A stretch of DNA of 64,000 nucleotides from Ignavibacteria bacterium (GTDB lineage Bacteria > Bacteroidota > Ignavibacteria > Kapaibacteriales > Kapaibacteriaceae). The notes below the pieces were generated by a model, which had not been told where the DNA came from, searched no databases, and was given only the letters and a program-made list of their open reading frames with translations. Made by a program: the position numbers and the translations under genes. Location of the stretch: NCBI GenBank assembly GCA_016191145.1, contig JACPPD010000009.1:1-64000 (forward strand). The letters are read 5' to 3'. Of this stretch, positions 27,659 through 31,014 are shown piece after piece; the first letter of the stretch is position 1; every line of letters begins with the position of its first letter.

Positions 27659-28870
27659 CTATCGAGGCAACTCAAGTCCTTTTGTTTCGCGCGCAAAAGC
27701 GAGTGTAATTAGGCCGACGAAATATGCCGAACCAAAAATCAGGATAGCTTGTCCGAAGCCCCCTATCCATGTTATCAGCAACCCGGCAAACAACACTGCT
27801 GCTGTGGTGGCAAGCCGCCCAACGTTGAAGCATACACCCGTTGCTACGCCGCGGATCAAGGTGGGAAACAGTTCCGGTACATAACCAACAAGAACGCCTT
27901 GATTTAAACCAATAAATAAACTTAGGATGAACGTAAGTGAAAACAAAACGGTGCCTACCGGAACTGTAAGTGCGAAGAGAATCGCCGTTAGAATGATGCA
28001 GCCCAGGTAACCTACAACTGCGGCGCCGCGCCTGCCCAGCCATTCTGCAAGCGGTCCGCTCAGAAAGCCCCCTGACACACTCCCCAACCCAAGCATGATG
28101 GTTGTAAGTGCTCGGTTTTTTTGTGCATCGGCTGGAATTCCTACCGATCCCACAAATGTTGGCATCCAAACGAAGACAGCCCACAATCCAACAAGCATTG
28201 ATCCAAACAGAAGAATGCCTGTAATGAGATCGGGTCTGAACTGTTGTTCAAAAATCCTTTCACGAGCCAGATTGTGCTGCTTGTGTTGCTTCTCACTTAA
28301 TGCCCACCACTCACTTTCGGGAACTAACGTCAGAACTCCCAGTGCAAGAATCACCGTCGATCCACCGATCAAGTATGCAGTTCTCCATTCCGGAATCATC
28401 GTTGCAATTAATCCGCTGACGATGAGACCAAAAGGGAATGAGTTTGCAATAATGCCAGTCATCCTGGCTCGGCCGCTGCGAGCCCATGCTTCGGCAACCA
28501 TCACTGCCGAAATCAGAAGGATACTGCCAGCACCCGCTCCGGAGAGAAACCGGATGATGACAAGTGCGCCGACAGACGTGACCAGTGATGTTCCCACAAT
28601 TCCAAGTGTGCATACCAGGACGCTCGTAAACAGTGCCATGCGTCGGCCAATTCTATCGCTAAGCGTCCCAATCACCACTGCGCCAACTGCCCAACCAAAT
28701 AAAAACGATGCACCTGCTGCAGCCCCAACACCGGCAACGTCGGCCTGTGCATTGGATCCCGTAAGATCAAATACAACCGACGGGAGATAGGCGCTGAACA
28801 GCGAGGCAGCGATGCCTGCGCTAACCGTTGCCAGATAGCAGATTGTAAATAGTGTTGTTCGATTGTGCAT
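27659..28870 (-). CDS. MFS transporter
   Basis: 12-TM pattern; GTLSDRIGRRMAL motif A. Confidence 0.9.
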   Translation of the reverse strand: MHNRTTLFTICYLATVSAGIAASLFSAYLPSVVFDLTGSNAQADVAGVGAAAGASFLFGWAVGAVVIGTLSDRIGRRMALFTSVLVCTLGIVGTSLVTSVGALVIIRFLSGAGAGSILLISAVMVAEAWARSGRARMTGIIANSFPFGLIVSGLIATMIPEWRTAYLIGGSTVILALGVLTLVPESEWWALSEKQHKQHNLARERIFEQQFRPDLITGILLFGSMLVGLWAVFVWMPTFVGSVGIPADAQKNRALTTIMLGLGSVSGGFLSGPLAEWLGRRGAAVVGYLGCIILTAILFALTVPVGTVLFSLTFILSLFIGLNQGVLVGYVPELFPTLIRGVATGVCFNVGRLATTAAVLFAGLLITWIGGFGQAILIFGSAYFVGLITLAFARETKGLELPR

Positions 28871-28904
28871 GAACAAAAATAGACTAACGTATTTTTGATG
28901 AACC

Positions 28905-29072
28905 ATGAACGTGGTGGCTGCATACGCAGCCCTAATAGGGAAGCAGGTGTGACTCCTGCACGGTTGCGCCGCCGTAGTGGCTGACAATTCATCCGAGCAT
29001 ACGCACCCACTGGTTGTACCGGGAAGGGGGATGGAACGAACGAAGCCTGAGTCGGAAGACCTGCCACGATTC
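28905..29072 (+). ncRNA. cobalamin riboswitch (candidate)
   Basis: AATAGGGAAGCAGGTGTGACTCCTGCACGGTTGCGCCGCCGT core, CCCACTGGTTGTACCGGGAAGGGGG, and 3' box AAGCCTGAGTCGGAAGACCTGCC typical of B12 riboswitches. Confidence 0.85.
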
Positions 29073-29141
29073 GCATTTTCCACCATGCGGCATCATAAAG
29101 CCGCAGTGCCGCGCATAACGGCAACATACCGGAGTTTAGTG

Positions 29142-30404
29142 ATGAGATTGTTTCTTGCTTTAGCAGTCCTTGTTGTGACTGCTTTGAACGGATTTGGTCA
29201 GCAAATCCTCCCAACCAAACCTCAGCCTGTAACAGTGTTTCTGTCAGGTGAGGAAGTACATGTGCTAACTGCGCAAACGGACAGGAATTTTGATGGTATT
29301 CAAAACGAAGCAGACGGAGATAGTCCGGCTTCGTGGGCAACGTATGACAGATCAACGCTTACGTTAAAGATAGAAACAGAATTCCCTTGGGCTTTTGTTG
29401 TTGCCGGGCGCATTGGATTTAGCACTGTTTCTTCAAGGATGTATATCGGTGTTGGCGATAGCGTATTGATTTTTTCGCTGGGCGATCACCAACAGTTGGG
29501 CATTCTCGACACTACTCGCGCTTATGCCGTTTCTGTTAGCGGAGACGGACAACGAACCTATCTCAGCAGACGCCCAACATTTAACGAGCCCGGATATGTT
29601 GATCAGGTTACTCCCGGCTCACCTTCGCCAATTAGGCTTGATGCCGGCATAAACCCGCAGATGACGAAGACGTACCGCACATCAGACAATGGTGTTGGAC
29701 TCGCAATTGTATGCGAAGGGGTTTTCGGTCAGGCAAACGGTACCATTGAAATATGGGCACCTGGGGCAACTGGGTATGAACGCACAACAATTGGCGTAGG
29801 AGACACGCCTAATTACATCGTGGTTGACGGCGACGCAGCCTACGTTGTTGTTAATGGCTCACACACTATTGTTAAAATAAATCTTCTTACTAAGTCTGCT
29901 GTTGATACATTCCAAACGGAAACCACAGGTTACGAAGGTCCACGAGAAGCTGTAATTAGCGGTGATTACATCTATGTCACAACATTCGCGGGTGACGTTC
30001 GGATTTTCGACAAGAACACCGGGATGCGCCTGGTTTCAGTTGACGTGGACGCAAAGCCAGAAGGTCTGGCTCTTATTAACGAAAAACTCTTCGTTACAAG
30101 AACTTTTCAGGCTGATAATTATGATTCACACAGCGGCGTTCTTGTGTACACCCTGGACCAGGTGCTGTCTGTAGCAGAAACCGCAGCGAAGAGCGGAAGT
30201 TCTAGGGCAATCTTCGCCGTCGATGAAACAATCAGACTCCCGATGTTCCAGGGATCTGCGGCGCTCAGCGTTTACGACATCAGTGGAAATCGGGGCGAAA
30301 TCGCACTCATTGATTTTGAGTCCATGAATGTGGATCTAAGCCATCTACCAAGCGGCACATACATCATCACCGATGGCAGGAAGAGCATCGTGGTTGGCAA
30401 ATAG
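29142..30404 (+). CDS. secreted YncE-like beta-propeller protein with T9SS-type C-terminal domain, downstream of cobalamin riboswitch
   Basis: Signal peptide MRLFLALAVLVVTALNGFGQ; repeated beta-propeller-like blades (DYIYVTTFAGDVRIFDKNTGMRLVSVDVDAKPEGLAL); C-terminus LSVYDISGNRG…[22 protein letters not shown]. Confidence 0.78.
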   Translation: MRLFLALAVLVVTALNGFGQQILPTKPQPVTVFLSGEEVHVLTAQTDRNFDGIQNEADGDSPASWATYDRSTLTLKIETEFPWAFVVAGRIGFSTVSSRMYIGVGDSVLIFSLGDHQQLGILDTTRAYAVSVSGDGQRTYLSRRPTFNEPGYVDQVTPGSPSPIRLDAGINPQMTKTYRTSDNGVGLAIVCEGVFGQANGTIEIWAPGATGYERTTIGVGDTPNYIVVDGDAAYVVVNGSHTIVKINLLTKSAVDTFQTETTGYEGPREAVISGDYIYVTTFAGDVRIFDKNTGMRLVSVDVDAKPEGLALINEKLFVTRTFQADNYDSHSGVLVYTLDQVLSVAETAAKSGSSRAIFAVDETIRLPMFQGSAALSVYDISGNRGEIALIDFESMNVDLSHLPSGTYIITDGRKSIVVGK

Positions 30405-31014
30405 CCGACTGCGCAACCATATTGTTGTTTTGGCTTGCGGTACACTTGCGTGTATTGCAAGCATTGTTTGGATTGATGCTCCCTTAGCGTATTTCATAGA
30501 GCAGAACCAGACTTCCGTTTCACGGCAAATAGGTCACTGGCTGGAGGAAGCCGGTAAATCGCACTGGGTACTAATTTATTGCGCCATTGTAGTGGTTGCA
30601 GCATGGCGAAGCTGGCGCACCGTGGCTCATAATCATATCGTATTGTTTGCTGCAGTGGCTGCGTCTGGCATTATTGCAAATGTAATGAAAGTTATCATTT
30701 CACGTTCGCGCCCGCATCTTCTGATTACCGACGGGATTGCAGCCTTTGATTTCTTTGCATTCCGTTTCGATTACTTGTGGAATTCATTTCCAAGCGGGCA
30801 TGCCACAACGGGAATTGCTATTGCTGTTGCAGGTTCAGTGGCTTACCCAAAGCTGCGTATCGTGATGTGGAGCATAGGCCTTGCCATTGCTTTCGGCCGA
30901 ATTGTTTATAATGTTCACTATCTAAGCGATGTTATCGGAGGCATCATAATCGGTCTGATCATCTCGTGGCTGTGTATCGATCTGATGGTTCTTGCTCCGA
31001 GAGTCCGCCGATAG
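30373..31014 (+). CDS. PAP2-family phosphatase
   Basis: [39 protein letters not shown]. Confidence 0.92.

Follow-up and report, generated by a model that had tools for sequence, protein, structure and literature searches.

A cobalamin riboswitch precedes a circularly permuted, BtuG-like propeller predicted to be exported by T9SS in Kapaibacteriaceae

In the 64,000-nucleotide stretch of Ignavibacteria bacterium DNA analyzed here (the window; contig JACPPD010000009.1), a cobalamin riboswitch lies directly ahead of a gene for a secreted beta-propeller related to BtuG. We consider it probable that the product is a B12-repressed, T9SS-exported corrinoid-capture propeller that acts in addition to BtuG, delivering its ligand to BtuB. 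Earlier work describes BtuG as a surface lipoprotein that forms the lid of BtuB, and the original survey found no homologs outside Bacteroidetes. The features of the locus are as follows.

27659 to 28870, minus strand: divergent MFS transporter gene (PF07690, 2.8e-34)
28881 to 28874, minus strand: promoter-like box of the MFS gene, TATTTTTG
28890 to 28897, plus strand: promoter-like −7 box, TATTTTTG, at the 5' edge of the riboswitch
28895 to 29082, plus strand: cobalamin riboswitch aptamer RF00174 (Rfam cmscan, full model)
29107 to 29123, plus strand: expression-platform hairpin TGCCG-CGCATAA-CGGCA, between the aptamer and the ribosome-binding site
29131 to 29134, plus strand: GGAG, probable ribosome-binding site, 7 nt ahead of the start codon (from sequence)
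29142 to 30404, plus strand: gene for the secreted, circularly permuted BtuG-like propeller (420 aa)
29712 to 29744, plus strand: codons 191 to 201 (CEGVFGQANGT), equivalent of the BtuG2 clamping loop Asn54-Thr64 by alignment to BtuG2
30207 to 30401, plus strand: C-terminal domain, residues 356 to 420, a T9SS type A-like sorting tail
30373 to 31014, plus strand: PAP2-family membrane phosphatase gene, next in line and overlapping the propeller gene at its 3' end (PF01569, 1.1e-21)

The initial annotation had read a cobalamin riboswitch ahead of the propeller gene, and the Rfam covariance model bore this out: at 89.2 bits (E = 1e-20), the match exceeded the gathering score of 31.5 and covered all of model positions 1 to 189. 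This is the only RF00174 copy in the window and in the whole 2.47-Mb genome, which is 99.96% complete. Its 3' end lies 59 nt from the propeller gene. Like other RF00174 riboswitches, it has a full-length aptamer that scores above the gathering threshold, with a conserved hairpin and then a ribosome-binding site downstream. We found no unusual feature in the aptamer; what is unusual is the gene that it controls.

The sequence TATTTTTG at its 5' edge is promoter-like in that it resembles a −7 box. TAnnTTTG is the Bacteroidota −7 consensus, and exact copies occurred near this position at 5 of 19 family loci, compared to 0.14 expected from shuffles. All seven pairs of the expression-platform hairpin showed two-sided changes in the family alignment, with 96.4% of cells paired, a level reached in none of 500 shuffles. 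The CGC in its loop is invariant in the family. The hairpin is probably P13/L13, and a contact between L5 and L13, pairing GUG with CGC, is plausible as judged by eye. Because the spacer between aptamer and gene has no terminator-like T run (by eye), translational control would be the likelier mode, and we infer that the switch works in the OFF direction. A longer GTG reading frame from 28977 overlaps the interior of the riboswitch; the gene likely starts at the ATG at 29142, behind the GGAG.

The protein begins with a Sec-type signal (by eye), continues with a beta-propeller at about residues 20 to 340, and ends in a C-terminal beta domain at residues 356 to 420. The AlphaFold model (pLDDT 87) shows, over residues 21 to 337, the 28 strands expected for seven four-stranded blades, in keeping with the secreted propeller that had been proposed behind the riboswitch. 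The cleavage-site region of the N-terminal signal, MRLFLALAVLVVTALNGFGQ, contains no cysteine and hence no lipobox.

A profile built from 19 propeller orthologs was searched against the PDB. The best matches were 8ptf, 8ptd, and 8blw, filed as YncE-family proteins (E values of 4.5e-20 to 4.5e-19). BtuG1 combines a propeller and, at its C terminus, a domain of the BtuH type (PMC8941943), and since the 663-residue chain 8blw_B fits this description, we took these entries to be BtuG. Further BtuG entries, including 3DSM, which is apo-BtuG2 (PMC10404256), matched at about 1e-12, so that BtuG-type chains spanned E values of 4.5e-20 to 2.8e-12. The generic surface-layer propeller 1l0q reached 8.6e-16 only through summed repeats; on the best single stretch, BtuG chains scored 68.5 bits compared to 33.6 for the generic propeller. 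The likeness to BtuG that had been suggested thus reflects homology beyond a shared fold (profile E = 4.5e-20).

Against the canonical BtuG of relatives, the ortholog profile matched with a probability of 99.2, and the match came in two pieces: residues 170 to 317 corresponded to BtuG's N-terminal half and residues 9 to 177 to its C-terminal half. We then turned the BtuG alignment in 15-column steps and rescored it against the propeller family at each rotation. The score rose from 143 over 132 columns when collinear to 213 over 296 columns at rotation 150, while a BtuG-against-BtuG control run by the same procedure peaked at zero rotation. Rotation likewise raised the score against the BtuG in chain 8bmy, from 63 to 85. 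By these alignments, the propeller is a circular permutation of BtuG in which BtuG's C-terminal blades are placed first. We tested for the blade order and the lipoprotein anchor of BtuG and found neither, so the protein is best described as BtuG-like rather than as BtuG in the strict sense.

We next considered the clamping site. In BtuG2, B12 sits between two loops, one of which is Asn54-Thr64, and Trp194, Trp272, Tyr316, and Tyr335 lie beside it (PMC10404256). This numbering was confirmed on chain 8bmy, where all of the named residues match at a constant offset of 31. The clamping loop of BtuG2, NEGNFQYSNAT, aligned to CEGVFGQANGT at residues 191 to 201, the most conserved motif of the propeller family. 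Within it, F195 and G196 are invariant, and E192 and G193 are at least 90% conserved in the family alignment. Tyr335 of BtuG2 aligned with Phe147, and Trp194 corresponded to Phe282 by inspection. Trp272 fell near Trp83, an approximate equivalence; Trp83 is invariant across the 19-sequence alignment. The remaining pocket residue, Tyr316, is not conserved in the propeller family.

One could instead read the protein as a secreted propeller of the generic YVTN type that serves some other purpose at the surface (adhesion, enzyme, or scaffold) and came under B12 control by chance. Generic propellers such as 1l0q match the profile too, Pfam holds no specific family for the protein, and a Foldseek search of the AlphaFold model against the PDB gave many propellers, listing generic WD40 and YVTN folds without singling out BtuG. 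We judge this reading to be very improbable, given the wide lead of BtuG chains over generic propellers on the best stretch, the conserved clamping loop, and the recurrent linkage to BtuB and BtuG in several families described below.

A T9SS-type sorting tail had been noted at the C terminus. On this protein alone, TIGR04183 scored 17.6 bits, below the cut-off of 23 (E = 0.0028). The assignment is backed by its relatives and its genome: the tail was matched in 10 of 21 propeller family members (E 0.01), the ortholog at locus L124 has a strong T9SS tail match (Pfam E = 2.6e-13), and the same genome encodes SprA (872 bits in total) and 84 TIGR04183 tails above the cut-off. Export of the propeller by T9SS is therefore likely on sequence grounds. 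It resembles T9SS type A cargo in having a Sec-type signal, a C-terminal beta domain, and a genome with SprA and these 84 tails, although its own tail is divergent. With a signal free of a lipobox and a T9SS-type tail, the protein agrees with the distinct design that had been suggested, T9SS-type export in place of a lipoprotein. The distinction goes beyond the export route, as the propeller is also circularly permuted relative to BtuG.

A single-sequence scan of genome contigs for relatives gave no match, whereas an alignment-based scan succeeded. Propeller orthologs were present in 21 of 22 other family genomes, counting genome G006, where only the C-terminal end remains at a contig edge and the locus ends there. 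Genome G016 had neither propeller nor riboswitch. In every family genome with a riboswitch (21 of 21, the window's genome counted), one lies directly upstream of the propeller. We compared the positions by hand across the order, and all 25 genomes with both elements have a riboswitch directly upstream on the same strand; in two more, G368 and G380, the propeller is present and no riboswitch was detected. G004 is the only family genome with a second cobalamin riboswitch, which stands ahead of the ribonucleotide reductase genes nrdB-nrdA (L072 8202-8447). At loci L122, L123, L133, and L134, two permuted propellers occur in tandem within one protein of 747 to 804 aa. Assemblies titled as a Melioribacter roseus P3M-2 isolate and a Bradyrhizobiaceae bacterium (L086 and L096) also carry the propeller family; both look like Kapabacteria-type MAGs under the wrong label.

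The divergent MFS gene was correctly placed just upstream of the riboswitch (27659 to 28870, minus strand). Of 20 family loci, 18 have an ortholog (42 to 67% identity) beside the riboswitch; the gene is better conserved than the propeller, and it is missing from the locus of G005. At that locus, a 1,058-aa protein starting MSTVLGLDIGSNSVGWAL, Cas9-like by eye, adjoins (L067 10573-13749). The promoter-like box TATTTTTG of the MFS gene is very near its ATG, so its mRNA may be leaderless. We rejected the idea that the riboswitch regulates the MFS gene as an antisense RNA, as it lies outside that gene and on the opposite strand.

On the other side, the PAP2 gene, whose start may lie later than 30373, had a match at 17 of the 20 family loci. 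Most sister genera have a 1,060-aa Sortilin/BNR-repeat protein between the propeller and PAP2 within the riboswitch operon (L053 8412-11588 and equivalents); the loci read in the window's own genus lack this gene. We had first suspected this 1,060-aa gene to be BtuB. In G329 (L136 9386-9958), a histidine phosphatase of the CobC superfamily follows the propeller where the window's family has PAP2. The frequency of PAP2 and this histidine phosphatase would suit a model in which the riboswitch serves mainly corrinoid salvage by PAP2, e.g., dephosphorylation of alpha-ribazole phosphate or cobalamin phosphate, with the propeller incidental. We regard that model as exceedingly improbable: the constant riboswitch-controlled gene across the order is the propeller, not PAP2, and PAP2 was not seen beside the propeller in the neighborhoods of other families that were read.

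Elsewhere in the same genome, a second operon on contig C10 (L142 3802-7681) encodes a TonB receptor, a BtuH-like protein, and a canonical BtuG lipoprotein. Among NCBIfam models, the receptor matches TIGR01779, the B12 receptor, best (2.2e-36), though below the equivalog cut-off. The BtuH-like protein weakly resembles the C-terminal domain of 8blw_B (family profile E = 0.017); its AlphaFold model was set aside at a pLDDT of 46. The BtuG has a lipobox cysteine (LLMLCASC). Given this operon, the propeller does not substitute for a missing receptor system. We found no cobalamin riboswitch ahead of the C10 BtuB operon, also at a relaxed threshold. This speaks against our model in that only the catcher would respond to B12 and the receptor would not; the two appear to be under different regulation.

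The initial annotation had also stated that no BtuB-like receptor is adjacent. This holds at the window's locus and fails beyond it. In sister families, the order within one operon is riboswitch, permuted propeller, BtuB, BtuH-like protein, and BtuG (L122-L125 and L134), and BtuB directly follows the propeller at L107, L109, L115, L116, L118, L120, and L135. This linkage ties the propeller to B12 uptake.

Such proximity raises another possibility, that the permuted propeller is an alternative BtuB lid, binding the receptor as BtuG does and replacing BtuG in some lineages, rather than a free-standing or separately anchored catcher. The propeller adjoins BtuB in many relatives, often with overlapping stop and start codons, and at L135 and L116-L120 that BtuB has no canonical BtuG gene next to it. 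However, both propeller types occur within one operon at L109, L119, L122-L125, and L134, so the permuted propeller is not a simple replacement for BtuG. Furthermore, the N-terminal lipid linker is the hinge in BtuG2 (PMC10404256), and the permuted propeller has no such linker and a different blade order. We therefore consider the lid unlikely and favor a separate catcher.

Compared with BtuG1-3 of B. thetaiotaomicron (PDB 3DSM; PMC6143338, PMC10404256), this catcher has in common a homologous beta-propeller with the same clamping-loop motif, a corrinoid riboswitch, btuB in the same operon in relatives of this genome, and a location outside the cytoplasm, which we infer here. It differs in its permuted blade order, in having a lipobox-free Sec signal and, in place of the N-terminal lipid of BtuG, a C-terminal domain of T9SS type, and in occurring in addition to a canonical BtuG, with btuB not adjacent in this genome. 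For BtuG2 itself, exchange of the signal for that of SusD is known to be functional (PMC6143338). BtuH and BtuJ of gut Bacteroidetes (PMC8941943, PMC13398666) offer a second comparison. They too are accessory B12-binding surface proteins from riboswitch loci that supplement BtuB-BtuG, the binding being a prediction for our protein, but their folds are unrelated to the propeller, which is BtuG-related.

The genome encodes the B12-dependent enzymes MetH and methylmalonyl-CoA mutase, together with MeaB, and CbiC was not found in it. The organism is thus a corrinoid user that probably does not make the ring. Neither PF01497 (BtuF) nor PF01032 (BtuC) matched in the genome, while control genomes matched in 13 of 14 cases; PF01032 was found in only 12 of the 123 genomes of the order. 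The absence of BtuF/BtuC homologs from most of these genomes points to another inner-membrane B12 transporter, for which the divergent MFS protein is a candidate by position only. From this, one could propose that B12 import in the order follows the textbook at neither end, with a permuted, T9SS-exported BtuG as the B12-regulated first catcher outside and, as most members have no BtuF/BtuC, a different permease (the MFS candidate) inside. Taken as a whole, we hold this broader proposal to be quite doubtful.

Taken together, we propose the following mechanism for the propeller. With sufficient cellular B12, the cobalamin OFF-riboswitch would lower propeller production. When B12 is scarce, the propeller would be made and cross the inner membrane by Sec, and its C-terminal domain would let T9SS carry it to the cell surface. 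There, its central pocket would bind corrinoids and pass them to outer-membrane BtuB, alongside the canonical BtuG encoded elsewhere. Both surface location and B12 binding are predictions of this model, as is handover to BtuB.

Among the titles and abstracts of open-access literature, we saw no description of BtuG with T9SS, a permuted propeller with TonB, cobalamin in Kapabacteria, or a cobalamin riboswitch with T9SS that matches this arrangement. If our model is true, corrinoid capture by a BtuG-type propeller would be independent of the N-terminal lipid anchor and of the BtuB hinge. The permuted propeller would then offer a natural experiment for telling the features of BtuG that serve capture from those that serve handover. 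Our comparisons suggest a second way of building a B12 catcher.
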